Shown: piece after piece, positions 20,652 through 50,564 of the stretch
How positions within the stretch are numbered: position 1 is the first letter of the stretch
Layout: each line of letters starts with the position of its first letter
NCBI RefSeq assembly: GCF_003367475.1
Contig: NZ_QRHA01000007.1
Location: 1 to 64,000 of the forward strand
Reading direction: 5' to 3'
Origin: Alteromonas aestuariivivens
GTDB taxonomy: Bacteria; Pseudomonadota; Gammaproteobacteria; Enterobacterales; Alteromonadaceae
Length of the DNA: 64,000 nucleotides
Position numbers and translations under genes: made by a program
The notes under the pieces: generated by a model
Databases searched by the model: none
Told to the model about the DNA's origin: nothing
Seen by the model: the letters and a program-made list of their open reading frames with translations, nothing else

Positions 20652-20716
20652 GAGGTATGAGGTCTGGAACATCATACCGGTCCATCAGCTGTGAGGCAGG
20701 TAGTGTGCCTGACTCA

Positions 20717-21926: not shown

Positions 21927-21956
21927 GGCCGGGACATTTGTCCCGGCCTTTTTTTT
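21927..21956 (+). terminator. Strong terminator between flagellins 3 and 4
   Basis: GGCCGGGACA-tt-TGTCCCGGCC, a perfect 10-bp stem followed by eight T residues. The 626-base gap 21729-22354 also holds a GGCGGCC/GGCCGCC hairpin (21771-21797, no T-run), the leader-like repeat above and the flagellin 4 promoter. Confidence 0.9.
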
Positions 21957-22177
21957 ATTCTTGCCAAGACATCCCTGCTATCTGCGACATATCATAAGCA
22001 TTCTTCGTGCCAACTATTTCGTTATTATTTTGACACTACCCTATAGCTGCTCAGCTTAGATACCTTGCAGCGATGAATCTGCTCTCAATATGACGGTCTA
22101 TTCATTCTTGTTCTTAGTTTTTAACCATTATAAATCATAGGGTTAAATGGTTTTTCAAAAAAATTTTAAAAAACCGC

Positions 22178-22204
22178 TAAAGAAATTCAAGACTTCGCCG
22201 ATAG
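22178..22204 (+). promoter_or_regulatory. Sigma-28 promoter of flagellin gene 4
   Basis: TAAAGAAA, 11 bases, GCCGATAG. Near-consensus with exact spacer, 151 bases before the gene. The long leader holds several GGA triplets, one in the loop of a CAGTC...GACTG hairpin (22272-22295), which would suit CsrA-type control. Confidence 0.85.
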
Positions 22205-22354
22205 CTATTGTCGAGGGGTAATGTAATTACTTTTTGGTGAAATGGCCAGCCGTTTCACAAATAAGAGGGATCAGTCGGGAGTAGTGACCTGACTGGTCGA
22301 ATTGGAAGGTTCGATGGTAGCACAGTTAACATCGAGTCCCTAGGAGGTAGACCA

Positions 22355-25959: not shown

Positions 25960-31590
<5,631 letters not shown>

Positions 31591-31594
<4 letters not shown>

Positions 31595-31951: not shown

Positions 31952-32023
31952 GCGGGCTAATGTTACAGCAGAATCCTGCTGAATTTTTTGTACACTGATT
32001 TACCGGCACTCGGGAGATTTGAA

Positions 32024-33082
32024 GTGAAAAAAGACGTACGAATCGGTAACAGATTGATAGGTCCAAATGAACCACCTTTTATAATTGCTGAACTAAGTGG
32101 TAACCATAATCAGGATTTGGTTGTGGCTGAGCGTATGGTCGACGAAGCGGCAAGAGCCGGAGCCCACGCAATAAAATTGCAAACTTATACGGCAGACTCC
32201 ATGACTCTAGACCTGGACGCCGATGGATTTGTAATAAAAGAGGCCAAAAGTCTGTGGGCAGGAGAAAGGTTACATGCACTTTATCAAAAAGCATCTACTC
32301 CTTACGAATGGCATGAAGCATTATTCAAAAGGGCTAGTGCTCTGGGTATGTTGGCATTCAGTTCCCCATTTGACACTGAGGCCGTGGATTTTTTAGCTGA
32401 ACTCGATGTGCCGTGTTTCAAAATAGCTTCTTTTGAATTAACTGATTTACCTTTGATTGCACATGCGGCAAGCAAAGGTAAACCATTGATAATGTCAACG
32501 GGGATGGCCACCCTGAGTGAAATTGAAGAAGCGGTAGATTGTGCCAAAACTAACGGCTGTGATGACATTGTGTTACTTAAATGCACAAGCACGTATCCTG
32601 CCGAGCCGAGTGACACAAACTTGCGAACAATCCCCAATATGCGCGAAGCATTCGGTTGTCAGGTGGGGTTGAGCGACCATACCAGGGGGGTTGGTGTTGC
32701 AGTTGCTGCTGTCGCATTGGGTGCAACCGTAATAGAGAAGCACTTTGTGCTGAATCGTGATGATGGCGGAGTTGATGCCGCGTTCTCCTTGGAACCTGAA
32801 GAAATGACTTCACTGGTCGTTGAAACCGAGCGGGCGTGGAAAGGTCTGGGGCACGTAGAATATGGGGGCTCTGACGCAGAGTTGGCATCCAAACAATATC
32901 GCCGTTCTATCTATGTTAGCCGAGACGTAAAAAAGGGTGAACGGCTGACCGAAGAAAACATGAAAATCGTCAGACCCGCATTCGGGCTTGCCCCCAAACA
33001 TTGGAATGACGTTCTTGGCAAAATTGCCCGGAATGACTTGCAATGCGGAACTGCATTAGGATGGGAACACATCTCTTCGTGA
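32024..33082 (+). CDS. pseI: PseI: pseudaminic acid synthase
   Basis: GTG start at 32024 chosen because GGGAG lies 8 bases upstream and the protein then begins VKKDVRIGNRLIG, the family start; an upstream TTG at 31988 has no ribosome-binding site. 352 residues. NeuB-type TIM barrel (PPFIIAELSGNHNQD, KLQTYTADSMT, CFKIASFELTD, LLKCTSTYPAEP, GLSDHTRG, VIEKHFVLNRD) plus C-terminal SAF/antifreeze-like domain (~285-350). It condenses phosphoenolpyruvate with 2,4-diacetamido-2,4,6-trideoxy-L-altrose to pseudaminic acid. GTGA overlap with pseG. Confidence 0.94.
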   Translation: MKKDVRIGNRLIGPNEPPFIIAELSGNHNQDLVVAERMVDEAARAGAHAIKLQTYTADSMTLDLDADGFVIKEAKSLWAGERLHALYQKASTPYEWHEALFKRASALGMLAFSSPFDTEAVDFLAELDVPCFKIASFELTDLPLIAHAASKGKPLIMSTGMATLSEIEEAVDCAKTNGCDDIVLLKCTSTYPAEPSDTNLRTIPNMREAFGCQVGLSDHTRGVGVAVAAVALGATVIEKHFVLNRDDGGVDAAFSLEPEEMTSLVVETERAWKGLGHVEYGGSDAELASKQYRRSIYVSRDVKKGERLTEENMKIVRPAFGLAPKHWNDVLGKIARNDLQCGTALGWEHISS

Positions 33083-34098
33083 GCAAAATGATCATTTGCA
33101 CAGATGCTAATGAACAAATTGGCGTGGGGCATTTGTTTCGCTGCATCGCGTTGGCCCAGGCCGCCGCACACCAGGGAGTTGATTGTCATTTTGTGCTCAC
33201 ATCTGCAGCGGCACGTATCTCGGATCATCAGCGTGATTGGAGTTTTGCTGTTTCCGAATCATCTCCTGAAGACTGTTTTTTGACGTTATGTGATTTGCTC
33301 GAACAGCCGGAGAATAGCGTTCTGGTGCTGGATGGTTACAAAATTTCTCGAGAACAACTCAAGAAGTTGCGTTCAAAAGTTAAGTGTATTGTCGCTCTGG
33401 ATGATGGAGAATTTCGGTATATCGAATTTGCAGATATTGTAGTAAATCCGGCTTCCCGGAACCTCAATAATAAGTACATTGAGATTCAGCCTAGCGTTCA
33501 TTGTTGTACTGGCTCATCTTATCGATTACTGCGACAGGAGTTCTGTAATTTAAACCCCCTGCCCGTTCAGTGTAGGCAGGGGATTGTCCTCTGCTTTGGT
33601 GGCAGCGATCCAGCTGGTCTAACAATTAAGTTGCTTCAAGCATTAGATGAAGTTGGCGCAAGAGTTCCTATACGCGTAATTACAGGTGCGGCCTACCCAA
33701 CGCTGCAAGAGCTGAAATCGCTGATTCCTACACTCGATCTGCCTATTGAGCATAGCCATCAATGTCAGGACATGGCACAAGCCTGGAGCAGTGCGAGGCT
33801 CGCGATCAGTGCTGCCGGTGGCAGCCAGTTCGAACTGGGTGTCTGCCAGACTCCTTCGGTGTTAGTCACTGTGGCTAACAATCAACTTGCCGCATCTGAG
33901 CGTGCAGCTAAGGAGGGCTGGTGTCGTGTGGTCGACAAATCCATATCAATGCGTTCACTTGCCACCCTGGCTTTAACGCTTTATGGCGACGACGAAGTTC
34001 TGAAAACCATGCAGGCGGCATGCAGCAAATTTTATGACGCACAGGGGGCATTCCGAGTAATAAATTGCATTAGAGAGGTTTTGAATGATTGCCGTTGA
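33079..34098 (+). CDS. pseG: PseG: UDP-sugar hydrolase of the pseudaminic acid pathway
   Basis: Start placed at GTG 33079 (VSKMIICTDANEQIGVGH), which overlaps the pseI stop; an ATG at 33088 is the nearest alternative and the frame is open back to 33043. About 339 residues. N-terminal TDANEQIGVGHLFRCIALAQ holds the catalytic His of the GxGH motif; C-terminal GT28-like half has LCFGGSDPAG and ISAAGGSQFELG. It removes UDP before PseI acts. Overlaps pseH by 14 bases. Confidence 0.9.
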   Translation: MSKMIICTDANEQIGVGHLFRCIALAQAAAHQGVDCHFVLTSAAARISDHQRDWSFAVSESSPEDCFLTLCDLLEQPENSVLVLDGYKISREQLKKLRSKVKCIVALDDGEFRYIEFADIVVNPASRNLNNKYIEIQPSVHCCTGSSYRLLRQEFCNLNPLPVQCRQGIVLCFGGSDPAGLTIKLLQALDEVGARVPIRVITGAAYPTLQELKSLIPTLDLPIEHSHQCQDMAQAWSSARLAISAAGGSQFELGVCQTPSVLVTVANNQLAASERAAKEGWCRVVDKSISMRSLATLALTLYGDDEVLKTMQAACSKFYDAQGAFRVINCIREVLNDCR

Positions 34099-34648
34099 AC
34101 CGAATAAGAATGGTGTTATTATTCGCGGCTACCAAGTTGAGTTGATTCCGTTGTCGTCCCAACATTTAGGTTTGCTCAGAAAGTGGCGTAACAGTGCCCG
34201 TGTGCGCTTAAATATGATTAACTCAGGACAAATTTCAGAGGAACAGCATCAAACTTGGTTTGATGGTTTGAAATCGGATCCATCCCAGCAACATTGGGTA
34301 GCGTATTACAAAGGTATACCATTTGGTGCAACCAATCTTAAGGCTTTCGCTGGCAAAGAGATTGGTTCATCAGCAGTGCTGGAGCCGGGTTTGTATGTAG
34401 GCCACCCTAAATATCAGAATAACCTAATTGCATTTGCCCCAACATTAGCCTTGTATGATTATGTATTTGATCTGCTCAAGATCAGGGAATTACAGGCGAA
34501 TGTTAAATCCAGTAATCAGGCGGCGTTGAATTACAATCAAAAATTAGGATATAAGGTAGTTAAAAGGGCAGATTTGGTTACGTTATCGTTATTAAAAACC
34601 GACTACAGCAATGAAACCAAAATGATTAAAGGCTTGTTGTCGCGCTAA
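34085..34648 (+). CDS. pseH: PseH-like GNAT N-acetyltransferase
   Basis: 187 residues with GNAT features: LRKWRNSARVR at ~31-41 (the WRN motif common in PseH/RimJ types), FGATNLKAF, and ELQANVKSSNQAALNYNQKLGYKVV as the acetyl-CoA-binding end. In the pathway it acylates the 4-amino group of the UDP-altrose intermediate. The acyl cassette that follows makes an acyl group other than acetyl possible here; this is inference. Seven bases separate it from the ACP gene. Confidence 0.87.
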   Translation: MIAVEPNKNGVIIRGYQVELIPLSSQHLGLLRKWRNSARVRLNMINSGQISEEQHQTWFDGLKSDPSQQHWVAYYKGIPFGATNLKAFAGKEIGSSAVLEPGLYVGHPKYQNNLIAFAPTLALYDYVFDLLKIRELQANVKSSNQAALNYNQKLGYKVVKRADLVTLSLLKTDYSNETKMIKGLLSR

Positions 34649-34655
34649 ACAAGAA

Positions 34656-34913
34656 ATGGCAGTGAAAAGTACTATGAGTAATCAGCAAAAACTAGTTCAG
34701 GCGTTTTGTGATGCGCTAGGTGTGTCATCGCAAACAGTTAATGATGAGTTGCAATACAACACAATTAGGGAATGGGACTCAACCGGGCATATGGTGCTGG
34801 TATCAGAACTGGAAACCGTCTTTAACGTTATGCTCGATACTGATGACATTATTGATATGAGTTCTGTGGCAAAGGCCAAAACCATTCTGGCGAAATATGG
34901 CGTTTCCTTATAG
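34656..34913 (+). CDS. Acyl carrier protein (phosphopantetheine-binding)
   Basis: 85 residues (78 if translation starts at the second ATG, 34674). WDSTGHMVLVSELE has the DS motif with phosphopantetheine-attaching Ser42, followed by LDTDDIIDMSS typical of helix 3. It is a dedicated ACP, not FabD-region acpP, since its neighbours are a FabG-like reductase, an acyl ligase and LuxE/LuxC-like enzymes. It would carry the acyl chain handled by these. Its last 17 bases overlap the next gene. Confidence 0.9.
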   Translation: MAVKSTMSNQQKLVQAFCDALGVSSQTVNDELQYNTIREWDSTGHMVLVSELETVFNVMLDTDDIIDMSSVAKAKTILAKYGVSL

Positions 34914-35664
34914 CGGTTCGATATTGCAGGGCCATTCAGTCTTGGTCACTGGCGCCACCGGAGGCATCGGCAGAGCCATCGTTTCCAATCTAGCACAATC
35001 TGGTGCGACGGTGTTTGCCGGAGGTCGAAACAAAGTTGCTCTGGATTCACTGGTGGAGGAGGTAGCCGGTAAGGTTGTGCCAGTGGACTACGATGTGACC
35101 GATGAAAACGCCGTTAAAGAGGTGTTTCGAACAATTCAAGCCAGGCAATCGGATCCGGACGTCGGTAATTTTGTGGGGCTTGTGAACAATGCCGGCGAAA
35201 TGAAGGAAGCCGGGCTTGTGGCAAGTAACATGGAATTGCTCAGGTTACAAATGAGCGTGAACTTTTACGCGGCATATCAGCATATGCAACTGGCAAGCCG
35301 GCTGATGGTTCGTCACCGCAAAGGTGCCATAGTCAATGTGGTGTCACAGATTGGTGAGCAGGGCGGGGCTGGCTTGAGCGCTTATAGCGCGAGTAAGGCT
35401 GCACTGACCGGGGCAACTAAGTCTCTGGCAAAAGAGTTGGCTCCGTTCGGAATTCGTGTAAATGCCGTGGCTCCTGGCTTTATCAGCACCCCGATGACTG
35501 CTCATTATACACAGTTGCAAAGAGATGATGTTTACTCTCGTGTCGCGTTGAAACAAAGTGGAACCCCTCAGCAAGTTGCGGATGCAGTATTGTTTTTGCT
35601 TGATCAATGCGCGGGTTATACCACTGGCCATGTTTTACCCGTCGACGGCCTTTTTCAGGCGTAG
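34897..35664 (+). CDS. FabG-like short-chain dehydrogenase/reductase
   Basis: 255 residues, classical SDR. NADPH motif TGATGGIG (18-25), NNAG (97-100), and catalytic Tyr163/Lys167 in AYSASK, then PGFISTPMT. Resembles 3-oxoacyl-ACP reductases, so it could reduce a 3-ketoacyl group on the adjacent ACP to a 3-hydroxyacyl group. A sugar-modifying SDR is the alternative. The start overlaps the ACP gene, a strong sign that they work together. Confidence 0.85.
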   Translation: MAFPYSGSILQGHSVLVTGATGGIGRAIVSNLAQSGATVFAGGRNKVALDSLVEEVAGKVVPVDYDVTDENAVKEVFRTIQARQSDPDVGNFVGLVNNAGEMKEAGLVASNMELLRLQMSVNFYAAYQHMQLASRLMVRHRKGAIVNVVSQIGEQGGAGLSAYSASKAALTGATKSLAKELAPFGIRVNAVAPGFISTPMTAHYTQLQRDDVYSRVALKQSGTPQQVADAVLFLLDQCAGYTTGHVLPVDGLFQA

Positions 35665-35679
35665 TGGAGTCAGATTTTT

Positions 35680-37092
35680 GTGATTAGATGGGTTACAGCA
35701 CTCGAAAAGTGGGGCGGTAACACTGCCATCATTGAAAATGGCTATGAGGTTTCTTATACCGAGTTGTCCGCTCTAATTAGGCAGAACCAACGGGCAATTA
35801 CATCGTTGCTGCTCACTGACAAGCCGGGAATACTTCGCGGCGAGGCTGTGACTCGTCCGTTGGTGCTTGTGGTCATGGATAACTCTCTGCAGAGCGTAGT
35901 GCATTATCTAACCTGCCTGGCTTACAACTGGCCGGTTCTCCTCATCAGTCCAAAACTCAACAAGGACGCGATTGAACTTGTCGAGGAGCAATTTCGACCT
36001 AACCTGATTTTGTCTGGCGAACGACAGGTGTTGGCGTCGAAGCAACAACACAGACTGTCACCAGAGCTGGCTCTCATACTGATGACATCAGGCTCAACGG
36101 GAGGGGGTAAAGGGGTGGCAATTTCTGCTCTGAATATCGCCGCTAATACGGCCAGTATTTGTGGTTACCTACCCATTGAGTCAAGCGACATAACTCTGGC
36201 AACGATGCCATTTTCCTATTCCTACGGACTTTCCATTCTGAATACGCATTTGTCTGTTGGGGCATGTATCGCGCTGAGTTCGGCTACGCTTGTAGATAAG
36301 GAATTCTGGAATCTGTTGGAAAGTTTGCCAGTCAATTCTCTGGCGGGTGTGCCCCATTGGTATGAAATGTTGGTAAGCCTGCGCTTTACCCGCCGTGCGT
36401 GGCCTCATTTGCGATATTTTACTCAGGCCGGAGGGAAGCTTTCTCCGAAATTGATTAAGGAGTTGAGCCAGTTTGCCGATACTAATCAAAGTCGGTTTTA
36501 TCGAATGTATGGTCAAACCGAGGCCACGGCCAGAATGGGATGGCTTGAGCCTGCCCTTGCGGGAACCAAACTGGAGGCTATTGGAAAGGCCATTCCTGGT
36601 GGGGAGTTTAGTTTGCGCGATGAAGCCGGGAAGTTGATTGAAAATATCAACGTTATAGGAGAGCTTTATTACCGGGGGGATAATTGTATGTTGGGGTACG
36701 TTGAAAGCGTTGCAGACCTGCACAATTTTGAGCCCCAATCCAGCTTGGCCACTGGAGATTTAGCCATGCAGGATCACGATGGGGATTACATTCTTAAAGG
36801 GCGGAAGCATCGAATAATCAAACTACTGGGTGAGAGGGTTAATCTTGACGGCTTGGAGTTTTTGTTTGCTGGCCGGGACCTGGAAGTAAAGTGTTTTGGT
36901 GATGATTCAATGCTGTATTTGGCCTGTTCTAAGTTTTCTGAAAAGCAGGTCACTGCTTTGGCAAGGGAGTTTCTGGCTTTTCCGCCTAAATATTATTCAG
37001 TTTTTGTAGTGAATAATTGGCCACTGCTGCCGAATGGAAAAACTGACTATATGACTTTAATGCGATTAGCTGCAGTATTAACCGATGACTAA
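35680..37092 (+). CDS. AMP-forming acyl ligase (ANL superfamily)
   Basis: 470 residues, GTG start, slightly short for the family. P-loop MTSGSTGGGKGVAIS (~130-145), YGQTEATARMGW (~282), TGDLAMQDHDGDYILKGR (~360) and LLPNGKTDY near the end with the adenylation lysine. It should adenylate a carboxylic acid and load it on the ACP or CoA. The substrate cannot be read from the sequence. Overlaps the LuxE-like gene by 8 bases. Confidence 0.87.
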   Translation: MIRWVTALEKWGGNTAIIENGYEVSYTELSALIRQNQRAITSLLLTDKPGILRGEAVTRPLVLVVMDNSLQSVVHYLTCLAYNWPVLLISPKLNKDAIELVEEQFRPNLILSGERQVLASKQQHRLSPELALILMTSGSTGGGKGVAISALNIAANTASICGYLPIESSDITLATMPFSYSYGLSILNTHLSVGACIALSSATLVDKEFWNLLESLPVNSLAGVPHWYEMLVSLRFTRRAWPHLRYFTQAGGKLSPKLIKELSQFADTNQSRFYRMYGQTEATARMGWLEPALAGTKLEAIGKAIPGGEFSLRDEAGKLIENINVIGELYYRGDNCMLGYVESVADLHNFEPQSSLATGDLAMQDHDGDYILKGRKHRIIKLLGERVNLDGLEFLFAGRDLEVKCFGDDSMLYLACSKFSEKQVTALAREFLAFPPKYYSVFVVNNWPLLPNGKTDYMTLMRLAAVLTDD

Positions 37093-38179
37093 CCCGACCA
37101 ACTTGACCTATTGTGCTGAGTTTGACAGTTTGTTTCAGCACCAAGTCTTTGGATTGCCTGCATTAGAAAAGCGCGCCGCATTGATGCCTGTTTTTAATGC
37201 ATTGCATCAACATCACCTTGCCTGCTCACAAACTTATGCAAGGCTGACCCACGGACAGCCGCTTTCCTTTCGAACACCAGATGAGCTGCCTTATTTGGCA
37301 GTAAGACTGTTCAAGCACTATTCATTATCCAGCGTGCCTGACAATGAAGTCTTTCGAGTATTACAATCCTCCGGTACCACAAGCCAAAGCCCGGCCAAGG
37401 TATTATTAGACAAAGCAACCAGTGCCCGGCAAAGCAAAGCGCTGGTTAAGATAATGCAAAATTTTCTGGGAAAACAGCGTTTACCAATGCTGATTATTGA
37501 CTCTCCGTCTGTGGTTAAGAACAAGGCTCTTTCTGCACGGGCTGCAGGTATACAGGGGATGGCATTTTTTGGCCGCCAACCCGTATACGCACTGAATGAA
37601 GACATGTCTTTGAATAGTGTGGCTATTGAAGCCTTTCAACGTCAGTATCATGCTGGTCCGGTGTTGGTGTTTGGCTTTACTTTTATGGTTTGGGAGTATT
37701 TTGTCCGGGCGCTGCAAATAGCCAAGCAAAGACTTTCTATGACCAATGCTACTCTGATACACAGCGGCGGCTGGAAGACGTTAGTTGATAAGCAGGTTGA
37801 CAATCCCTCATTTAAGCAGAAAGTGAGCGAGGTGCTTGGAATAGAACGGGTACACAATTTCTATGGCATGGCAGAACAAGTCGGAACGGTATTTGTGGAG
37901 TGTGAACATGGCTTTCTGCATGCCCCTTCTTTGGCTGAAATACTCATCCGTTGCCCTTACACGCTCAAGCTTCAAAAAATGGGGCAGTCCGGGCTTGTTC
38001 AGGTATTGTCCAGTATTCCTAGCAGTTATCCGGGGTATAGCCTGTTAACCGAGGATTTGGGGCGGATACTTGGGGAAGACGATTGCTTGTGTGGCCGAAA
38101 AGGAAAGTATTTTGAAATACTCGGCCGCCTTCCAAAGACTGAGCTGCGAGGCTGCAGTGATACTATGGGGGCTGGATGA
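37085..38179 (+). CDS. LuxE-like acyl-protein synthetase
   Basis: 364 residues, matching the LuxE/acyl-protein synthetase family: FRVLQSSGTTSQSPAKV (~88-104), GFTFMVWEYF, IHSGGWKTL, HNFYGMAEQVGTVFVEC (~255-272) and a terminal cysteine-containing segment GEDDCLCGRKGKYFEILGR. In luminous bacteria LuxE activates fatty acids and passes them to LuxC. No luxAB is near, so light production is not the role. ATGA overlap with the LuxC-like gene makes a coupled pair. Confidence 0.88.
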   Translation: MTNPTNLTYCAEFDSLFQHQVFGLPALEKRAALMPVFNALHQHHLACSQTYARLTHGQPLSFRTPDELPYLAVRLFKHYSLSSVPDNEVFRVLQSSGTTSQSPAKVLLDKATSARQSKALVKIMQNFLGKQRLPMLIIDSPSVVKNKALSARAAGIQGMAFFGRQPVYALNEDMSLNSVAIEAFQRQYHAGPVLVFGFTFMVWEYFVRALQIAKQRLSMTNATLIHSGGWKTLVDKQVDNPSFKQKVSEVLGIERVHNFYGMAEQVGTVFVECEHGFLHAPSLAEILIRCPYTLKLQKMGQSGLVQVLSSIPSSYPGYSLLTEDLGRILGEDDCLCGRKGKYFEILGRLPKTELRGCSDTMGAG

Positions 38180-39384
38180 AATATACCCTGTTGGCCCCCC
38201 GGCCGAAAGAGCAGTGTGCTGAATTACGCCCGGTATATGAACTGCCAGTTTGGTATCAATTGCCTTTGTCCTATCATTGCGATTCCACCATCGAGTTTCT
38301 GAACCACATATCGCGGACTATCATGCAAGATAAGGAATGTCGCGGCCACAGTGAGCTGGTTGCGCTGGCGTTTTGGTTGAGGGCCTCAAATCTTGTGGAG
38401 TTTGTGAAGGATTCTCCGCCAGGCCACTATAAAGCGCTGGGTACAGTGGTTCACTTTACACCGTCTAATGTGGATACCATGTTTGTTTATAGTTGGGCGT
38501 GTTCTGTGCTGGCAGGCAACAATAATGTTGTCCGGGTATCGGAGCGGGGAGGCTTGGTAAAAGAGCACCTTATAAGGATACTGAATCAGGTTTTCGCATT
38601 ACCCCAATTTTATGAATTTGCCATACGCAACCTTTTTGTTACATATGAATATCAGGCATCACAGGGTAAAAGTATCACTCATGCGCTTTGTAAGCAGGCT
38701 GACGCGAGGATCCTGTGGGGCGGCGATAACAGCGTCAGTACCATTCGCGCAATTCCGTGTCCGCCAAGGTGTCGCGATATAAGCTTTGCAGACCGTTACT
38801 CATTCAGTGTGATTGGCTCGGAGGTGATGGTTGATATGGAGATTGCTGAGGGCGCAATGACGAACCTGATGAAGGAGCTCACACCCTACAATCAGCAGGC
38901 ATGCTCATCGCCGAAGGTATTGTTTTGGATAGGAGATAGCCGGTCACTAGAAAAGTTTTTGTCGCTGGCTGGTGAACGTCATTTCGAGGTGCTGCCGTCA
39001 TTAACAAGGCGCAATGAGCAGCTTGTCACTGCTCAGTCGCTGCAAATTGAATACGCGGCAAGCCGGGTACATATGGTTGGGGAGTTATGCGCTATTGAAA
39101 TGACGAAAGTGAATGACAAAATGCTCAGTCTTCACAGCGGTAACCAAGTGTTATTCTGTCAATGTGTGGCTTCACTGGATGAGATAGCTCCGTTTATTTC
39201 GCCGAAAGTACAAACATTGAGCTTCGCTGGAATTGCCAAACCTGCGTTAGTAAAGTTTATGGCTAAGCCGTCGATAACAGGAGTGGATCGGGCGGTCCCA
39301 CTGGGAGAGGCGTTGTCCTTTTCTCCCGTTTGGGATGGTTATGAACTTTTTAGCCAACTTTCTCGGCGCGTGGTAATAAGATGA
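38176..39384 (+). CDS. LuxC-like acyl-CoA/acyl-protein reductase
   Basis: 402 residues of the LuxC family (PF05893 type). The nucleophile is probably Cys243 in YNQQACSSPKVLFW; HFTPSNVDTMFVYSWACSVLAGNNNVVRVS (~93-122) is the NADPH-binding region. It would reduce an activated acyl group to an aldehyde. Together with LuxE-like, ligase, reductase and ACP it forms a five-gene acyl module in the sugar locus. End overlaps the next glycosyltransferase by four bases. Confidence 0.88.
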   Translation: MKYTLLAPRPKEQCAELRPVYELPVWYQLPLSYHCDSTIEFLNHISRTIMQDKECRGHSELVALAFWLRASNLVEFVKDSPPGHYKALGTVVHFTPSNVDTMFVYSWACSVLAGNNNVVRVSERGGLVKEHLIRILNQVFALPQFYEFAIRNLFVTYEYQASQGKSITHALCKQADARILWGGDNSVSTIRAIPCPPRCRDISFADRYSFSVIGSEVMVDMEIAEGAMTNLMKELTPYNQQACSSPKVLFWIGDSRSLEKFLSLAGERHFEVLPSLTRRNEQLVTAQSLQIEYAASRVHMVGELCAIEMTKVNDKMLSLHSGNQVLFCQCVASLDEIAPFISPKVQTLSFAGIAKPALVKFMAKPSITGVDRAVPLGEALSFSPVWDGYELFSQLSRRVVIR

Positions 39385-40325
39385 AGTTATCGGTTCTGAT
39401 ACCTGCTTTCAAACTGGAAAAGTACATTGCAGCCTGCGTAACATCAGTGTGTGAACAGCAAACCAGTTTCGACTTTGAAGTTCTTGTTTGTGATGATGCT
39501 TCTCCGGATGGTACTGCAGATATTATTCGAAATTTGGCTAGGTGCTACCCGCAACTTATACCCATATTTAAGACGGAAAATCGCGGTTTGGCCGCGAATA
39601 TGAGTACGTTATTGTCCAGAGCAAAGGGGGACTACATTGCCTATCTGGACGGAGATGATATTGCTCTCCCAGGGAAATTACAAAAACAGGTAATGCACTT
39701 AGACACGAATCCTGACTGTGGCATGGTGTTCCATGAATCGGACGTGTTTGACTCTGACACCAATAAGTCGGTCAAACTGTATAGCCAGGGACACTACAAT
39801 TGGGCCCGTATCCCTGCGCGCTCGGACATTACCCATTTAGTGCGCTTTGGTACTTACATGCAGGCTAGCAGTGTTATGTTTCGTCGCCATCCTAATCTGT
39901 GTGACGCAGTGGTGCCTGAATGTGAAATCATTCTAGATTACCCTTTTTATGTTATGAATGCGGGTTTCCTGAATGGCAAAATAGATTTTATTGAAGATGT
40001 GCTGGGACGGTACCGTATTCACAATGAAAGCTTTGGAGCACAAACGCAGAAATCCGTTTCCAGGCGGCTACAGAGCTTGAATGATATTTTGCTTACGTGC
40101 AGAAAAGCGGGCCAATTTGGTGTTGAACAGGACGTTATTGAGCAAGGCATAGAGCATCATATCTATGCTGCTGCTTTGTATTTTTTGTTCAGGAATCACG
40201 ATCAGCAATTTACCGTTTTGATTGAACAATCTGCACCGAATGGGCGTTTTTTTGATCAACAGCACAAAGAAGTGTGGCTCAATCGTACGCAGCCCGCGCA
40301 GGTGCGTGAGTTGCTAGCGAGTTAA
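39381..40325 (+). CDS. Family 2 glycosyltransferase A
   Basis: 314 residues. GT-A fold with LSVLIPAFKLEKYI at the start, the VCDDASPDGT nucleotide-binding motif (~37-46) and YLDGDD as the metal-binding DxD (~88-93), then DYPFYVMNAGF. No membrane segments, so a cytosolic transferase adding a sugar to a nucleotide-activated or protein-linked acceptor. Donor and acceptor are unknown. It is one of four GT2 genes here. Confidence 0.88.
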   Translation: MKLSVLIPAFKLEKYIAACVTSVCEQQTSFDFEVLVCDDASPDGTADIIRNLARCYPQLIPIFKTENRGLAANMSTLLSRAKGDYIAYLDGDDIALPGKLQKQVMHLDTNPDCGMVFHESDVFDSDTNKSVKLYSQGHYNWARIPARSDITHLVRFGTYMQASSVMFRRHPNLCDAVVPECEIILDYPFYVMNAGFLNGKIDFIEDVLGRYRIHNESFGAQTQKSVSRRLQSLNDILLTCRKAGQFGVEQDVIEQGIEHHIYAAALYFLFRNHDQQFTVLIEQSAPNGRFFDQQHKEVWLNRTQPAQVRELLAS

Positions 40326-40327
40326 AC

Positions 40328-41503
40328 ATGATTAACCCTGATGTCATAGTTATAGGTGCTGGCTTTTCTGGTGCTGTTATTGCTGAACGTTTTGCGACAG
40401 TTGCCAATAAAAAGGTACTGGTGCTGGAGCAACGTGAGCATATAGCGGGAAATTGTTATGACTATAAAAACGAAGACGGTATTCTTGTGCATCGCTATGG
40501 ACCCCACTTGTTTCACACCAACAAGCAGCATGTATGGGATTACTTATCCCAGTTTACAGACTGGCATTGCTACGAGCATAAGGTACTCAGCCGCGTTGAT
40601 AATCAACTGGTGCCATTGCCGTTTAATTTAAATACGCTGGATTGTCTTTATTCAGTGGAAGACGCCCGAAAACTCAAGGCATTGTTGTTTGAAAATTATG
40701 GGGAAGGACAAAAAGTTCCAATTTTGACTCTGAAAAACAGTTCGGAGCCGTTATTGAGACAATTGGGCCAGACGGTTTACGACAAATTTTTTGTCAACTA
40801 CACGGTCAAACAGTGGGGTTGTGCGCCAGAAGATATCTCCCCTGAGGTAACGGCGAGAGTTCCGGTGGTGATTTCGAGGGATAATCGTTATTTCCATGAT
40901 TTTTTTCAGGCCATTCCTGCGCAGGGTTACAGTGAATTGTTTAAGCGCATGCTGGCACATTCGAACATAGAGCTGGTTTTAAATTGTGATGGCACGCAAC
41001 GGCTGTCGCTAAATCGAGATACCGGAAAAATCTACTTTGATGGCCGTCGCTTTGACGGCCAACTTGTTTACACAGGTATGTTAGACGGGCTGTTCAGTTA
41101 TACTCACGGGGAATTGCCTTATCGTTCCCTGAAGTTTGTTTATGAGCGTCATAAAAAAGCGTTTTATCAGCCCGCCACAACGGTTAATTATCCTAACGAA
41201 GAAGCCTTTACCCGCATTACAGAGTTTAAACATATTTTGCCAGCTGAATCTGATTACACCGTAATAGTGAAAGAATACCCTCAGAATTTTGTTCGGCATG
41301 ATCCAGAACGCGACATACCTTATTACCCGATATTCAATCAGAAAAATACAAAATCCCACGATATTTACCAAGGTTTGGTCAGGCAATTTCCTAATATGAC
41401 GGTACTTGGAAGGCTTGCTGACTATAAGTATTACAATATGGATGATGCTGTCGATAATGCGTTGAAATGTTTTGACAGGTTAAACGGCGCAGTTGATGAC
41501 TAA
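40328..41503 (+). CDS. glf: UDP-galactopyranose mutase
   Basis: 391 residues, FAD-dependent. VIVIGAGFSGAVIAERFA (5-22) is the dinucleotide fold; HIAGNCYDYKNEDGILVHRYGPHLFHT (~38-64) and TVKQWGCAPEDISPEVTARVPV are the mutase signatures. It interconverts UDP-galactopyranose and UDP-galactofuranose, supplying Galf for a transferase in this cluster. This implies that galactofuranose is part of the glycan. Ends inside the start of the next GT gene. Confidence 0.93.
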   Translation: MINPDVIVIGAGFSGAVIAERFATVANKKVLVLEQREHIAGNCYDYKNEDGILVHRYGPHLFHTNKQHVWDYLSQFTDWHCYEHKVLSRVDNQLVPLPFNLNTLDCLYSVEDARKLKALLFENYGEGQKVPILTLKNSSEPLLRQLGQTVYDKFFVNYTVKQWGCAPEDISPEVTARVPVVISRDNRYFHDFFQAIPAQGYSELFKRMLAHSNIELVLNCDGTQRLSLNRDTGKIYFDGRRFDGQLVYTGMLDGLFSYTHGELPYRSLKFVYERHKKAFYQPATTVNYPNEEAFTRITEFKHILPAESDYTVIVKEYPQNFVRHDPERDIPYYPIFNQKNTKSHDIYQGLVRQFPNMTVLGRLADYKYYNMDDAVDNALKCFDRLNGAVDD

Positions 41504-42392: not shown

Positions 42393-42746
42393 ATGCAAAA
42401 ATTAACACTCATCAGTTTTGGGTTTAAATATGGCATTCCCAATGCGAATTATTATTTCGATGTCAGCTTTGCGAAGAACCCTGCCCGTGAAAGTAGGTGG
42501 AGTCTGTTCGACCAGCCGGATAATGCAATGATGGACTATGTCCTTAGTCAGCCCAAGGTTGAAGATTTCATAAATGCACTGTTGCCGATGCTGGATGTGA
42601 TTATCACTCTGGATGATGACGCAAGAATTGCTCTGGGCTGCAATGCAGGAAGACATCGTTCTGCAATTATTGTAGAGCATGTGGCGAGCAAAATTCGCGC
42701 AAAAGGCATAGATGTGGAAGTTATCCATAGAGAGTGGAAAAAATGA
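42393..42746 (+). CDS. Stand-alone RapZ C-terminal-domain protein
   Basis: 117 residues matching only the C-terminal domain of RNase adapter RapZ: ISFGFKYGIPNANYYFDVSF at the start, YVLSQPKVEDFI in the middle and the anion-binding loop GCNAGRHRS (Cys83-Arg89, a CX5R pattern). The N-terminal P-loop kinase-like domain of RapZ is missing and there is no room for it. In E. coli this domain senses glucosamine-6-phosphate and controls amino sugar synthesis through GlmZ. GGGAGG ribosome-binding site; overlaps the next gene. Its role in a sugar locus is unknown. Confidence 0.85.
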   Translation: MQKLTLISFGFKYGIPNANYYFDVSFAKNPARESRWSLFDQPDNAMMDYVLSQPKVEDFINALLPMLDVIITLDDDARIALGCNAGRHRSAIIVEHVASKIRAKGIDVEVIHREWKK

Positions 42747-44811: not shown

Positions 44812-45908
44812 CCAAACCCATGATACTGGCATCCGGGCTGCAAAGTGGTGGTACCACGCTGGTTTCCAGTGCTTTTTTGAAACACCCTGATTTGGATGGA
44901 GTATTGGACATGGCTTCCGACCGGATTGAGTATGAGCTTAGCTTGGCGAAAAAGCCGGTTACCTGGGTAAAAATGACCACAATCAGTTTTACTTGGCAGG
45001 AAGTGGCTGAAGTCTATTCGCTGCAAGGGTATCAGGTATTCCCTCTGCTTATTGTTAGAAACCCTTTTGATGCGTGGGTCTCATTGAAGTCGAAATGGTA
45101 TGGCTTAAACAGTACTACGGCAGAGGATCCACCGCTCATTTTGCGATTTCGTCGGTTCTTGCGAGATTGGGAATGGTTTGTCTCTCAGGGGCATCCTATT
45201 ATCAACTTTGAAACATTTGTGGCAAATCCCAAAGACGCTTTGCAAGAGGCCTGTAAGTCGCTGCCCATCGATTATCATGAATTTATGACAGAGGGCGAGA
45301 CCAAGCTGAAGGACATCGCTTATGTGTCTGAGTCGAATCAGAGTTTTTTGAGTTCTTTAACAAAAGGGGTGAGTCAACAGATTGCCTCTAAAACGAAATC
45401 GATTTCCAGTGAAGAGGCACAGTGGCTAACATCCAATTTCAGTGAAATCATTACAGCCTATGGTTATCAGAATCACCATCATGTTCATGATGAGCCATCT
45501 GTTTTGGGAGGTCATCTGGTTCCACATCCTTTTGACAGTCGCCGATATCTCGGATTTGGTCCTCAGGCGAGTTTGAGAAGGGTCTCAGACAAGTTTCCTG
45601 AACTCATTAAGTGCTGCAGTGCTTTGATAGATAGTGGGGTGCCAATCGCTATTTATGGTAGTGGTGAGTTTGCACAATATCTGAACTCTGTTCTCAGCCA
45701 GAACAATATCAAAGTTGAGTGTTTTTACGACAGCTTTTTGAACGTCGAACACGCCATTCACGATGTGCCAGTGAGGCGTTACTCAGCGACTTCGCGGGAT
45801 CAGTTTATTATTATTGCCAGTTTTAAAAATGCACAATCCATCGCCAGTTTTTTAAGCTCAAAGGGAGTGAGTGCTGAGCGAGTATATACTTTTTTACGGG
45901 AGGGCTGA
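44808..45908 (+). CDS. Sulfotransferase-like protein with C-terminal Rossmann-like domain
   Basis: 366 residues. TTG start at 44808 overlaps the preceding stop, with a strong AAGGAGAGGG upstream; an ATG four codons later is possible. LASGLQSGGTTLVSSAF (7-23) is the PAPS 5'-phosphosulfate loop and LLIVRNPFDAWVSLKSKW (~80) the 3'-phosphate motif. Residues ~275-366 (IAIYGSGEFAQYLNSVL, VECFYDSF, VPVRRY, FIIIASFKNAQSIASFLSSKG) parallel the end of gene 43534. It probably sulfates a sugar; the extra domain is of unknown use. Confidence 0.8.
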   Translation: MTKPMILASGLQSGGTTLVSSAFLKHPDLDGVLDMASDRIEYELSLAKKPVTWVKMTTISFTWQEVAEVYSLQGYQVFPLLIVRNPFDAWVSLKSKWYGLNSTTAEDPPLILRFRRFLRDWEWFVSQGHPIINFETFVANPKDALQEACKSLPIDYHEFMTEGETKLKDIAYVSESNQSFLSSLTKGVSQQIASKTKSISSEEAQWLTSNFSEIITAYGYQNHHHVHDEPSVLGGHLVPHPFDSRRYLGFGPQASLRRVSDKFPELIKCCSALIDSGVPIAIYGSGEFAQYLNSVLSQNNIKVECFYDSFLNVEHAIHDVPVRRYSATSRDQFIIIASFKNAQSIASFLSSKGVSAERVYTFLREG

Positions 45909-46837
45909 TGGGCGCTTTAGTTCGATATTGTAAAACTCATTATGAATACAAATGGATTGTTTCCAGAGACGCATCGGCTTTGGATTTCGCTAAGCAAGTA
46001 CTGTACGAGAATGATTTTGAACTTAGTGACCACCTCCAGCTTGTATATCCCGAAAATGTTGAAATAACCTTTCCCGAAAATTCGATTCTTGTTGTTTTCG
46101 AGCATTCACTAAACGAGGCTTTGCAAACCAGCAAGTTATTAAATCAGTGGAAAGATTATGGTGTTCCTGTGGTTTTTGGGAATGCTAGAAACGTTTTTTT
46201 CGAAAAGCCGGATGTTTCTGCGCAAGGGCTTTCTTACCCAGGTATGTTTCAGTTGTGTGCCAGCTATTTACGCGGAATGAAGCAGACAATAAGCCAGCAT
46301 TTGGCGTACGCTGAATTTGGAGTGTTCGACGGTAGGACCTGCACATTGGCATGGCATCTGTTGAATGAAACCCTGGGGCACTATTACGCATTCGATTCCT
46401 TTAAAGGGATTCTGGGTAAAGCCGATGGAGAAGAAAAATTTTACCAAACAGGAGACTACTACGCTAACCAGCAAACCTTTTCTGTGAATTTAGAAATTTG
46501 TGGCGCCGACCTGTCACGCTTTTCTGTTGTAGAGTGCGATTTCGATAATGTTCCTGTATTACAGAGCAAAGCGAGCACCATTAATCATAAGTTGGCTGTT
46601 GTTCACATTGACTGCGATGTTTATCCGGCGGCCTACAATGTGTTGAATGCTGTGACTGCTCATTTGGCTGAAGGGTGCATTTTGCTCTTTGATGACTATG
46701 ACTCAATGTGGGGCGATTCCTCCAAAGGAGAAAAGAGAGCTCTTGCTCAATGGCAGACTGAAAATCCTGAGTGGGAGATATCGGAGTATCGTCGATATTC
46801 AGCGACAGGAAGAGCTTTTTTATGCAGCAAACGTTAA
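45908..46837 (+). CDS. TylF/MycF-type class I methyltransferase
   Basis: 309 residues. The first ~95 are an extra domain without a recognised motif. The rest is the TylF family: YAEFGVFDGRTCTLAWHL as SAM motif I, YAFDSFKGI, VVHIDCDVYPAAYNVL and CILLFDDYDSMWGD, whose aspartates bind the catalytic metal in macrocin O-methyltransferase relatives. Expected to O-methylate a sugar. TGATG overlap with the upstream sulfotransferase-like gene and a 16-base overlap with the downstream radical SAM gene. Confidence 0.85.
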   Translation: MGALVRYCKTHYEYKWIVSRDASALDFAKQVLYENDFELSDHLQLVYPENVEITFPENSILVVFEHSLNEALQTSKLLNQWKDYGVPVVFGNARNVFFEKPDVSAQGLSYPGMFQLCASYLRGMKQTISQHLAYAEFGVFDGRTCTLAWHLLNETLGHYYAFDSFKGILGKADGEEKFYQTGDYYANQQTFSVNLEICGADLSRFSVVECDFDNVPVLQSKASTINHKLAVVHIDCDVYPAAYNVLNAVTAHLAEGCILLFDDYDSMWGDSSKGEKRALAQWQTENPEWEISEYRRYSATGRAFLCSKR

Positions 46838-47781
46838 AACCACTTGAACAATCTCCTTGGCTTGAAGAGGAGCAGCGCCTCATTGTCGGCATCGAGTTTA
46901 CCAATGCGTGCAACTTTCGCTGCCCGATATGCCCTCAGGCGTATCGTTATAGTAAGCAGCCACAGCCCGCAGGAGCGGTGTATGACAGACAGATCGGCAA
47001 CATAACTTCGCCAGTTTTTCATCGAATTGTGGATGAATGTGAGAGAGTAGCCAAGACGGTAGAGCTTAATTTTTTTGGTGAGCAGACTCTTCATCCTAAA
47101 TATCATGAATTTTTAACTGTGATGAAGTCGAGACAAAATTATCGCGTGGTGACAAACACAAATATGTCGTTACTCGATCCAAGTATTATGGAATTGTGGA
47201 TTGACGCAAAAGTTGATCAAATCCGTCTGAGCATTGACGCAATCGACAGCGATGTTTTCGATATCGCACGACCCGGACGAGTCAGGAGCCTGGATGGGAA
47301 GTCGATTAAAAAGAATCGACTGGAAGCCATACATGAAAAAATGAAAATGTGGTTCAGTTTGCCTGATCATCGGCCTACACGGCTAGTGTTCGTTGAGAGT
47401 CAGTTCAACCAAGGTCAGTCCAATCGATTTATCGATTACTGGACGCCATACCTTGGCGTTTCAGATGAGCTCATAGTAAAGCCAGTTCTATCCTACGGTG
47501 GAAAAATTAGTGATCCATCCATTACATCAGGACGATGCAATGTGTGGGATCTCAAAATGTGTCAGGTGGATTGGCAGGGGAATGTCTCGCCGTGCAATCT
47601 CGATGTCAATATGGATTTGCACCTCGGAAACATTATGAACCAAAGTTTATTTAATATTTATTACTCGGCCGATGCAAATACGCTTAAGTCTAAAACGGGG
47701 TGCGGTAACGATATTTCACCATGTAAAACGTGCACGGACAGCAATTTTTGGGAAGGTACAATTCGTGTGGTGGGTAAATAG
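46822..47781 (+). CDS. Radical SAM protein with C-terminal cysteine (SPASM-like) cluster
   Basis: Start at ATG 46822 (MQQTLKPLEQ) because AGGAAGAG lies upstream; a longer frame opens at 46771. 319 residues. Radical SAM motif CNFRCPIC (Cys30, 34, 37), FFGEQTLHP and VTNTNMSLL. The C-terminal Cys set (RCNVWDLKMCQVDWQGNVSPCN and CGNDISPCKTCTD) suggests an extra iron-sulfur cluster. Families of this type modify peptides or sugars. Substrate unknown; the glycan context suggests a sugar or flagellin. Confidence 0.85.
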   Translation: MQQTLKPLEQSPWLEEEQRLIVGIEFTNACNFRCPICPQAYRYSKQPQPAGAVYDRQIGNITSPVFHRIVDECERVAKTVELNFFGEQTLHPKYHEFLTVMKSRQNYRVVTNTNMSLLDPSIMELWIDAKVDQIRLSIDAIDSDVFDIARPGRVRSLDGKSIKKNRLEAIHEKMKMWFSLPDHRPTRLVFVESQFNQGQSNRFIDYWTPYLGVSDELIVKPVLSYGGKISDPSITSGRCNVWDLKMCQVDWQGNVSPCNLDVNMDLHLGNIMNQSLFNIYYSADANTLKSKTGCGNDISPCKTCTDSNFWEGTIRVVGK

Positions 47782-49862: not shown

Positions 49863-50564
49863 TCAAAGCTCTCCCTCTTGGCGAAGTACCTTGTAAAGCA
49901 ACTCGGCGCGTCGCCAGTCTTCGGGGGTATCGATATCCTGAACCCGGTGGTCCGGTAACACGATCATCTGTGAGGTCGGGCTGAAGATATCCTTGGTGCT
50001 GTCCAGCCAGGTTGCATGATTGGCCCAGTACAGTTGTCCGGCGTCGTGAAAAGCATCGGGCAAATCCTGCGAGCGCTTGCCAATACTGTCGGGATCAAAC
50101 GGGGTAACGCCGCCGGATTCAGTTTTCAGCAACGCACGCTGAATGGGAAACGAAAACCGTGCAGCGGTGAAAACGTAATCCGCCCCGGAGCGCTTTAACT
50201 GTTCAAGCGCATCGGCAATCAGGCCGGGATGCAGCAGTGGAGCCGTAGCATAAATGCAGGCAACCTGTTTGAGTGGCCAGTCTGAGTCAAGTAACTGTTC
50301 AACCGCATGGCGCACCACCGGGCGGGTGCCCACGGTGTCATTGGCAAGATCTGCCGGGCGCATGAAAGGCACATCGGCACCAAATTTTCGGGCGACGTGG
50401 GCAATTTCTTCATCATCAGTGGACACCACAACTTTATCAACCACGCCACTTCGCAACGCTGCGGTAATGGAATGGGCAATCATGGGTTTACCGCAAAACG
50501 ACTTGATGTTTTTGCGTGGAATGCGTTTGCTGCCGCCTCGGGCAGGGATCACGACGATATTCAT
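49863..50564 (-). CDS. pseF: PseF: CMP-pseudaminic acid synthase (intact copy)
   Basis: 233 residues. CTP-binding start MNIVVIPARGGSKRIPRKN with GKPMIAHSI, then VVSTDDEEIA, MRPADLANDTVGT, and FHDAGQLYWANH with QDIDTPEDWRRAELLYK at the end: full PseF motif set. It activates pseudaminic acid with CTP for Maf. It stands alone on the minus strand at the far end of the island, with a base composition like the core flagellar genes. The relic at 31591-31951 shows that the operon copy is dead, so this copy should be essential for the pathway. Confidence 0.94.
   Translation of the reverse strand: MNIVVIPARGGSKRIPRKNIKSFCGKPMIAHSITAALRSGVVDKVVVSTDDEEIAHVARKFGADVPFMRPADLANDTVGTRPVVRHAVEQLLDSDWPLKQVACIYATAPLLHPGLIADALEQLKRSGADYVFTAARFSFPIQRALLKTESGGVTPFDPDSIGKRSQDLPDAFHDAGQLYWANHATWLDSTKDIFSPTSQMIVLPDHRVQDIDTPEDWRRAELLYKVLRQEGEL

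Follow-up and report, generated by a model that had tools for sequence, protein, structure and literature searches.

What is a set of lux-like genes doing in the pseudaminic acid (Pse) locus of a bacterium that has no luciferase? The question is raised by a 64,000-nucleotide stretch of Alteromonas aestuariivivens DNA (contig NZ_QRHA01000007.1, positions 1 to 64,000; hereafter the window), in which genes for a PseH-like GNAT, an ACP, an SDR, an AMP-ligase, LuxE and LuxC run head to tail on the + strand from 34085 to 39384, within a pse locus downstream of flagellin genes. The answer proposed here, to which we give an even chance of being right, is that the block is a portable pathway making a dihydroxybutanoyl group, which would be transferred to the amino sugar precursor of Pse.

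Gene content of the block

The surrounding genes identify a pseudaminic acid locus: pseB, pseC, pseF, pseG and pseI all score above their NCBIfam cut-offs (Table 1), and the block is preceded by genes for flagellin, FlgK, FliD and Maf. Within the block, the AMP-binding, LuxE, LuxC and adh_short_C2 matches all exceed their Pfam cut-offs. The ACP has no Pfam match at E 0.001 and its NCBIfam ACP matches are all below cut-off (best 20.4 bits); its Asp41-Ser42 is kept in 116/116 block ACPs (those scoring at least 60 bits with an ACP HMM built here). Equally invariant among block proteins are Tyr163/Lys167 of the SDR (109/109), Lys454 of the ligase (119/119), Cys357 of LuxE (120/120) and Cys243 of LuxC (118/118). 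The LuxE profile (A1) matches the solved LuxE 7xc6_E with an E of 6e-26, and the nearest named LuxE relative is that of Alteromonas antoniana (65%).

Gaps of 7 and 15 bases separate PseH from ACP and SDR from ligase, and overlaps of 17, 8, 4 and 4 bases join ACP to SDR, ligase to LuxE, LuxE to LuxC and LuxC to the following glycosyltransferase. The Pfam matches and the junctions of +15 to -17 bases bear out the order, strand, coordinates and overlaps that a first-pass annotation had given for the genes from ACP to LuxC. It was also right that luciferase genes are absent: no match to Bac_luciferase (PF00296) was found across the 3.85 Mb genome at E<=0.001, and bioluminescence was rejected on this ground. 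The whole genome holds one LuxE match and one LuxC match, both inside the block, and a Pfam scan of the block genes revealed no luxD thioesterase.

Table 1. Genes of the block and of the surrounding pse and flagellar locus (window coordinates)
Feature	Position	Strand	Basis
Maf flagellin nonulosonic acid transferase	25960..29451	+	Pfam Maf_flag10_N 385 bits
pseB	29448..30452	+	NCBIfam PseB 551 bits, above cut-off
pseC	30449..31594	+	NCBIfam PseC 499 bits, above cut-off
pseI	31988..33082	+	NCBIfam PseI 495 bits, above cut-off
pseG	33043..34098	+	NCBIfam PseG 188 bits, above cut-off
PseH-like GNAT, proposed acyl-ACP-dependent N-acyltransferase, C4-NH2 of altrosamine (N-7 of Pse)	34085..34648	+	NCBIfam PseH below cut-off, fold
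Acyl carrier protein (ACP)	34656..34913	+	weak NCBIfam ACP matches, Asp41-Ser42
SDR reductase (FabG-like), proposed aldehyde reductase	34897..35664	+	Pfam adh_short_C2 172 bits
AMP-forming ligase, proposed acid:ACP ligase	35680..37092	+	Pfam AMP-binding 145 bits
LuxE-like acyl-protein synthetase	37085..38179	+	Pfam LuxE 156 bits
LuxC-like acyl reductase	38176..39384	+	Pfam LuxC 102 bits
GT2 glycosyltransferase, position of Aeromonas fgi-1	39381..40325	+	Pfam Glycos_transf_2
UDP-galactopyranose mutase	40328..41503	+	Pfam GLF 218 bits
pseF, CMP-Pse synthetase	49863..50564	-	NCBIfam PseF 304.5 bits, cut-off 205.7

Distribution and gene neighbours

The same gene order recurs in dozens of other genomes and is therefore not a product of chance. 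A hand count over one order sample puts PseI in 40/42 block genomes vs 101/352 others, a co-occurrence with pse genes for which the first-pass annotation had proposed to search. The SDR gene (at least 200 bits with the block HMM) is missing from 7/41 loci of the order sample and 12/78 named block loci, some of which are cut by contig ends, and the ligase is fused to LuxE in loci L058 and L067.

Within the stretch examined, pse genes are absent from 34 of the 78 named block loci. A scan of the neighbours at 30 of these 34, covering 84 of 107 selected genes (the other 23 looked like doubtful or very long ORFs), found GT2 glycosyltransferases in 9/84 and DegT aminotransferases in 7/84, so that a sugar role is common among block loci of this kind, though not one that the scan shows at every locus. 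Although many of them stay unexplained, the block did not lie mostly next to genes for lipids or polyketides at the surveyed loci, the outcome named beforehand as evidence against a sugar link. Directly 3' of luxC, a gene of the lactate/malate-dehydrogenase family is found in 2/159 loci, L166 (13 bp gap) and L171 (11 bp overlap), which lack pse genes and belong to one lineage (Gastranaerophilales). Their best model is L-LDH, with a score below its cut-off, and they carry Arg at a position where Gln stands in two of the three solved LDHs aligned with them.

Kinship with tetronate-type operons

Loci L044 and L045 contain operons of ACP, ligase, Fe-ADH and a fused LuxE-LuxC. HMMs trained on the block score these proteins at 291-292 (LuxE), 127-128 (LuxC), 148-150 (ligase) and 52-54 bits (ACP), as against 82-91 bits for LuxE and 64-78 bits for LuxC of three lux operons, controls in which two luciferase (PF00296) genes each lie beside luxE; the best other non-block LuxE, at L093, reaches 125 bits. 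Judged by these scores, the block proteins are nearer to operons of the L044/L045 type, with which they share about 33% (LuxE) and 22-23% (LuxC and ligase) identity, than to lux operons. HMM scores were preferred for this judgement because the LuxE tree has long branches that meet and its lux-operon rows were dropped by a length filter; in this tree, built with a random draw of 46 out of 122 block rows and including the window, block and fused type group at 93% SH-aLRT and the block alone at 88%. An Fe-ADH is present in L044, L045, L207 and L208, whereas the block genes of the window include none and have the SDR instead. When the fused LuxE-LuxC protein was searched against 227 genomes of a single genus, four matches were full-length, including the genome from which the query came.

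The gene content of L044 and L045 is that of the cholera O1 tetronate genes, where RfbN would presumably be the fused LuxE-LuxC and RfbM the Fe-ADH. In a tetronate operon of the V. cholerae type, perosamine is acylated with 3-deoxytetronate. One study describes five tetronate genes in V. cholerae O1, VC0248-VC0252, and loss of the O1 antigen upon deletion of wbeL, whose product has 471 aa (PMC3441752).

The PseH-like GNAT

The gene preceding the ACP had been called pseH, a name that holds in so far as the product is a PseH-like GNAT and fails at the NCBIfam equivalog cut-off (TIGR03585; 80.4 vs 93.1 bits). This cut-off is passed at the block by 1/36 block genomes, but by only 9/40 blockless pse genomes, and was rejected as a discriminator of the two groups because 31/40 of the latter fail too; several blockless loci score low because PseH is fused to PseG there. 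In G492, a block genome, a canonical PseH is encoded at another place.

With the predicted GNAT model (pLDDT 96), the tied top solved structures included PseH 4ri1 and the uncharacterised 2qml (both Z 20.6) and FdhC 5ktc and SpeG (both 19.9). PseH and FdhC have the GNAT fold in common with the block enzymes, and 5ktc was solved, according to its entry title, with a hydroxybutanoylamino sugar product; identity is, however, only 13-18%, and GxG/A is missing from the CoA loop of the block enzymes. The motif occurs in 0/81 block GNATs (70 sequences once rows at least 90% identical are removed) vs 10/13 from blockless pse loci, the latter scored by eye; over a longer segment, 2/81 show an incidental GxA further on. 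In H. pylori PseH, the pyrophosphate of CoA is bound by Gly103 and Lys133 (PMC4363471); these residues were mapped onto the block GNATs by alignment only. The absent loop motif argues against the use of acetyl-CoA, short of proving it.

At loci with an ACP or SDR gene, 71/76 GNAT genes of the block type lie within 60 bp of either, on the same strand, counted over two locus sets with genomes partly in common; such a GNAT was found in 28/29 and 42/44 loci with block plus pse genes. At L144 and L159, which lack pse genes, it follows luxC. On the GNAT tree the block rows require 2 changes vs 12.4 in shuffles, the clade being imperfect. A second, fused PseH was sought in block-bearing Aeromonas, where the GNAT HMM matched 0/5 PseG proteins; it did match the blockless control L192. 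The 71/76 linkage and the PseI co-occurrence support the earlier suggestion that the flagellin sugar bears an unusual acyl group, for which the PseH-like GNAT is the probable donor enzyme.

Flagellin masses and proposed pathway

In the flagellin of Aeromonas piscicola AH-3, which carries the block, a Pse of 376.14 Da and a terminal unit of 102 Da have been reported and left unexplained; the other glycan units described are hexose, HexNAc, phosphate and methyl, with fatty acyl not among them. The residue computed for Pse5Ac7(dihydroxybutanoyl), that is, Pse with one acetyl replaced, is 376.1482 Da, and the whole glycan with two such groups computes to 1491.49 (published, 1491.5). The published AH-3 deletion, however, removed fgi-1 to fgi-12 and left the block in place, and so does not tie the block to the 376 Da sugar. 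If N-5 carries acetyl, the likeliest acyl formula for 376.14 is C4H6O3. The same formula describes 3,4-dihydroxybutanoyl or, if N-5 is not acetylated, two smaller hydroxyacyls. The mass comparison covers three Aeromonas strains: A. caviae flagellin gives m/z 317.1, plain Pse5Ac7Ac, and AH-1 has yet another Pse of 403 Da, so that genes other than the block also alter the mass of Pse. Judging from the published island groups, A. caviae Sch3N and AH-1 would lack the block. None of the papers listed in literature searches, which covered few subscription papers, tied tetronate or dihydroxybutanoyl to flagellin or Pse.

In the proposed pathway, LuxE would adenylate the C4 carboxyl of malate and take the acyl onto Cys357, LuxC would accept it on Cys243 and reduce it with NADPH to the semialdehyde, and the SDR, standing in for the Fe-ADH of tetronate-type operons, would convert the aldehyde to 2,4-dihydroxybutanoate (3-deoxytetronate). 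The AMP-ligase would then charge the ACP with this acid, and in the fifth step the GNAT would place the acyl on UDP-4-amino-4,6-dideoxy-AltNAc, at the 4-amino group where acetyl would otherwise go, after which PseG, PseI, PseF and Maf would act as usual, so that flagellin would carry Pse5Ac7(dihydroxybutanoyl) with a residue mass of 376.148 Da. The analysis shows the gene content, the conserved catalytic residues, the kinship and linkage of the block, the missing motif in the CoA loop and the agreement with the published mass. We infer that malate is the substrate, in what order the five steps run and where the acyl group sits; a 2-hydroxy C4 acid is favoured by the dehydrogenase-family neighbours at L166 and L171 and by the tetronate precedent. 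By analogy, the organism of the window would make the same acyl group as Aeromonas. A wider generalization is offered tentatively, with slightly more doubt than belief: Lux-type reduction of malate would lead to 2,4-dihydroxybutanoyl-ACP, a distinct set of CoA-independent PseH-like GNATs would transfer the acyl directly from ACP to Pse precursors, the same cassette would serve other amino sugars in other phyla, and one biosynthetic family would embrace the Lux enzymes together with many flagellin glycans and the tetronate group of cholera O1.

Alternative readings

The same logic could operate on a substrate other than malate and yield a related small hydroxyacyl (3,4-dihydroxybutanoyl, or two groups of lactyl size). 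The isomers possible at 376.14 and the preference expected of a FabG-like SDR for a 3-oxo substrate suit this alternative, against which stand the malate-dehydrogenase-like neighbour and the tetronate precedent; it is unlikely. It is improbable that the acyl sits on a distal sugar (where it would be the 102 Da cap seen on the Aeromonas glycan) or on some other sugar, with the GNAT an ordinary acetyl-CoA-dependent PseH. Such a placement would fit the AH-3 cap and the blocks without pse genes, but the cap alone would leave the 376 Da unit unaccounted for, and the GNAT is linked to the block even in L144 and L159 and lacks the CoA loop motif. Moreover, the AH-3 fgi-1 mutant loses the cap and retains the 376 Da unit.

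A 'liposugar' was the guess of the papers on Aeromonas and Enterobacteriaceae (PMC7874193, PMC4875605): the flagellin glycan would bear a fatty acid or a fatty aldehyde, in line with the family names LuxE, LuxC, FabG and ACP. This is very unlikely: C12 and C14 acyl groups on Pse would require 456.28 and 484.31 Da, the AH-3 glycan is described without fatty acyl, and the block proteins resemble the tetronate type more closely than they do lux enzymes. Least probable of all is a group that stays an aldehyde on the sugar (malic semialdehyde amide or similar), one of the two end products that the first-pass annotation had envisaged. The block loci without SDR would fit it, but the SDR is present in 34/41 and 66/78, and the hydroxy-oxobutanoyl form of Pse computes to 374.13 Da, which does not fit 376.14, so that the aldehyde is likelier an intermediate.

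If the dihydroxybutanoyl pathway is correct, it would supply a structure for the unexplained 376 Da Pse of Aeromonas flagellin, and perhaps for the 102 Da cap, and supersede the liposugar guess. The LuxE/LuxC pair would prove to be widely reused for hydroxyacyl groups on surface sugars, a rule for genome-based prediction of the N-acyl groups of nonulosonic acids would follow, and an acyl-ACP-dependent PseH would become available for study.

Comparison with known systems

The block has already been described in other bacteria, and what is new is the proposed product; the first-pass statement that no pathway of this exact form was described does not hold. Group II of the Aeromonas polar-flagellin islands reads orf1-orf2-orf3-luxE-luxC-fgi-1 in print (PMC7874193), with ACP, 3-oxoacyl-ACP-reductase-like SDR, AMP synthetase, luxE and luxC in the order of the window and beside pseH. 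The GNAT-to-LuxC proteins of the named Aeromonas loci are 29-62% identical to those of the window. In 3/5 of these loci the glycosyltransferase after luxC is 41.6-46.5% identical to the GT2 of the window (AH-3 fgi-1 lay outside this comparison), and in 2/5 a UDP-galactopyranose mutase comes next, as in the window. All five have pseI and pseG on the opposite strand, whereas in the window pseI and then pseG run into the block; Group II has maf-2 downstream of pseI, whereas the Maf gene of the window precedes pseB. Acp, LuxE, LuxC, CaiC and FabG each occur in the flagellin islands of 71-80 Enterobacteriaceae strains (PMC4875605), a likeness at the level of gene families. Shewanella sfmABCDE was rejected as the same system, its genes being NeuB, a TPP enzyme, an SDR, a methyltransferase and ATP-grasp.

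With lux operons the block shares the LuxE and LuxC families and the conserved Cys of each; it differs in its ACP, ligase and SDR, in its lower similarity and in a genome without luciferase. A described pathway of nearly the same form is presumably that of the V. cholerae O1 tetronate genes (rfbKLMNO, VC0248-VC0252), which would correspond one for one to the block as ACP, AMP-ligase, LuxE plus LuxC, alcohol dehydrogenase and acyltransferase; the likeness was drawn from the L044/L045-type operons and gene descriptions. By this analogy Pse is probably modified by the block in much the way that the surface sugar of cholera bacteria is, with an SDR, separate LuxE and LuxC and a GNAT where V. cholerae O1 would have an Fe-ADH, a fused LuxE-LuxC and a hexapeptide acyltransferase.

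Gene organization of the locus

The FlgK, flagellin, FliD and Maf transferase genes of the window are followed by pseB, pseC, pseI, pseG and a gene for a PseH-like GNAT, and then by the ACP-SDR-ligase-LuxE-LuxC block, a GT2 glycosyltransferase gene and a UDP-galactopyranose mutase gene. From the GNAT through the GT2 gene, neighbours overlap or are separated by at most 15 bases; the gene content, order and overlaps recorded in the first-pass annotation were confirmed. LuxE and LuxC each match once in the whole genome, in which the search returned no luciferase-family match. Because the catalytic residues are invariant, namely LuxE Cys357 (n=120), LuxC Cys243 (n=118), ACP Ser42 (n=116), ligase Lys454 (n=119) and SDR Tyr163/Lys167 (n=109), counted with proteins under set HMM scores excluded and near-identical rows retained, all five block proteins look active at the sequence level. 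Natural fusions occur in comparison loci from other genomes, joining ligase and LuxE in L058 and L067 and block-type LuxE and LuxC in L051 and L172.

Features of the window and of comparison loci (L numbers)
Feature	Location	Position	Remark
Four ORFs of similar size	window, ahead of the island	18509-23200	both scanned (18509, 20880) match flagellin domains
Stand-alone RapZ C-terminal domain	window, between glycosyltransferase genes of the glycan island	42393-42746	98.5 bits
Methyltransferase, radical SAM/SPASM and sulfotransferase genes	window, island end	45908-48572 and 48776-49756	also a further protein without family hit, its start sulfotransferase-like by eye
PseF	window	49863-50564	opposite strand to pse and block genes
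ORF after PseF	window	50998-51867	matches flagellin domains
Lactate/malate-dehydrogenase-family gene	L166	12247-13200	abuts luxC
Lactate/malate-dehydrogenase-family gene	L171	12196-13104	abuts luxC
Same-family pse locus with AMP-ligase, GNAT, Fgi-1-like GT and LuxC	L186	13070-17128	LuxE not found in the 20 kb examined

Distribution and linkage to pse genes

LuxE-family matches were obtained in 61 of 394 genomes sampled from the order of the window and in 8 of 369 from its class. Blocks were called by HMM (LuxE at 250 bits or more, plus ligase and LuxC), and pse genes by PseI, or PseB and PseC, at 400 bits or more within the stretch examined. The order sample yielded 54 loci, excluding the window and with just L095 and L096 taken among 13 short weak matches; 41 are blocks, 29 of these have pse genes and 28 of the 29 a block-type GNAT. 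Among the 80 most window-like of at least 588 confirmed relatives, 78 loci are blocks and 44 of these have pse genes, 42 with the GNAT; in the stretch examined of the other 34, pse genes were not seen, and in some of them, such as Sphingomonadales and Clostridia loci, the analysis revealed no sugar acceptor. Alpha- and Betaproteobacteria are among the hosts of this set, as are Bacillota, Bacteroidota and Melainabacteria. The two sets overlap in genomes, and their counts are not additive. PseI exceeded the cut-off in 40 of 42 block genomes versus 101 of 352 others (hand count; Fisher 1e-17, ignoring kinship). The SDR gene is not present in every block.

The PseH-like GNAT as probable acyltransferase

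Where a locus has an ACP or SDR gene, the block-type GNAT gene lies within 60 bp of it on the same strand in 71 of 76 cases. The predicted model of the window GNAT (pLDDT 96) matches Helicobacter pylori PseH (Z 20.6; 161 residues superposed at 1.8 A), tied with the uncharacterised 2qml (Z 20.6), FdhC (Z 19.9) and SpeG (Z 19.9); the FdhC structure is a complex with a hydroxybutanoylamino sugar. In GNATs, the GxG/A loop binds the CoA pyrophosphate. This motif occurs in the aligned loop of 0 of 81 block GNATs (70 once near-identical rows are removed) and, by eye, of 10 of 13 PseH or PseG-PseH proteins encoded at loci that lack the block. In H. pylori PseH, Gly103 contacts the pyrophosphate of CoA together with Lys133 (PMC4363471), and in our reading of the alignment this Gly103 would fall in the same loop. 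Its absence suggests that the block GNAT uses an acyl donor other than CoA, the neighbouring ACP being the obvious one. Acyl delivery by this enzyme, first raised as a possibility, was judged right. The NCBIfam PseH cut-off fails to split block from blockless groups, and in one genome with the block (G492) a canonical PseH is encoded at another site. A second GNAT domain is absent from PseG in the five Aeromonas loci, where the block GNAT is therefore the sole PseH candidate detected.

Flagellin glycan masses

The N-5 acetyl of pseudaminic acid (Pse) derives from UDP-GlcNAc, and the PseH step determines N-7 alone, which leads one to expect a single changed acyl group. Pse5Ac7Ac has a computed mass of 316.127, and exchange of one acetyl for dihydroxybutanoyl gives 376.1482. 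According to the available part of PMC7874193, the flagellin glycan of the block-bearing Aeromonas strain AH-3 has as its first unit a 'pseudaminic acid derivative' of 376.14 Da, carries a terminal moiety of 102 Da of unassigned structure and totals 1491.5. The dihydroxybutanoyl residue computes to 102.0317 and the AH-3 glycan with two such groups to 1491.490. The mass comparison covers only three Aeromonas strains, a small number: A. caviae flagellin gives m/z 317.1 (excerpt of PMC9290775) and the Pse of AH-1 flagellin 403 Da (excerpt of PMC4691044), and from the island groups in the same part of PMC7874193 we infer that both lack the block. No mutant of the block was found in the published literature.

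Proposed pathway and substrate

The most likely function of the block is a reductive acyl pathway, in which Lux-type enzymes would lead to Pse5Ac7(dihydroxybutanoyl). The aldehyde would be an intermediate and probably not the final group; of the acyl or aldehyde product first envisaged on the flagellin sugar, the unusual acyl group was judged correct. In 2 of 159 loci examined, both Gastranaerophilales blocks (L166 and L171), luxC is abutted by a dehydrogenase gene whose product has Arg at a loop residue where two of three solved LDHs in the alignments have Gln. Arg there presumably marks malate/oxaloacetate specificity. The best match, 1y6j, deposited as LDH, also has Arg, and by model score both enzymes are closer to LDH than to MDH, under both cut-offs. 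The position of the gene and this Arg, in its assumed meaning, point to malate as the acid reduced by the block. The LuxE/LuxC and ligase steps could also run in reverse order, malyl-ACP being reduced first.

Three loci (L209, L210 and L211) have the block ligase, LuxE, LuxC and ACP without SDR and, between them, genes for a NeuB-family protein and for proteins of 594-623 aa and 157-158 aa, the latter two being a TPP enzyme and FabA-like by Pfam in L209. There, a NeuB-like condensation may take up the aldehyde formed by LuxC and yield a longer acyl group.

Comparison with known systems

The gene block as such is not new. The first-pass annotation knew of no described pathway of exactly this form and was wrong, since the accessible text of PMC7874193 contains the block, in Aeromonas Group II islands, and that of PMC4875605 its families, genes for ACP, LuxE, LuxC, CaiC and FabG each being reported from the flagellin islands of 71-80 strains of Enterobacteriaceae; both make the same product guess ('liposugar'). 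Five named Aeromonas loci share the GNAT-ACP-SDR-ligase-LuxE-LuxC order of the window, with proteins 29-62% identical.

The block LuxE HMM scores 291-292 bits with the fused LuxE-LuxC of two tetronate-type operons (L044, L045) versus 82-91 with lux operons and 31-125 with the remaining non-block LuxE proteins; the LuxC HMM gives 127-128 versus 64-78 with lux operons. In each of three lux-operon controls two luciferase-family genes lie beside luxE. The L044 and L045 operons encode a fused LuxE-LuxC together with an ACP, an iron alcohol dehydrogenase and a ligase, the last of 473 aa in L045; L207 and L208 are alike. All four lie near NeuB-family genes, L207 also near a UDP-GlcNAc 2-epimerase-family gene, and tetronate may decorate nonulosonic acids there as well.

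The Vibrio cholerae O1 set, which we take to be ACP, ligase, alcohol dehydrogenase, fused LuxE-LuxC and acyltransferase, matches these fused-type operons in its partly assumed content. Malate is said to be the starting point proposed in the older literature on it. The available part of PMC3441752 gives five O1 tetronate genes, VC0248-VC0252, a wbeL product of 471 aa and loss of the O1 antigen upon wbeL deletion. The block likely works like the tetronate pathway; it is not a member of that pathway, because the alcohol dehydrogenase and acyltransferase belong to other families.
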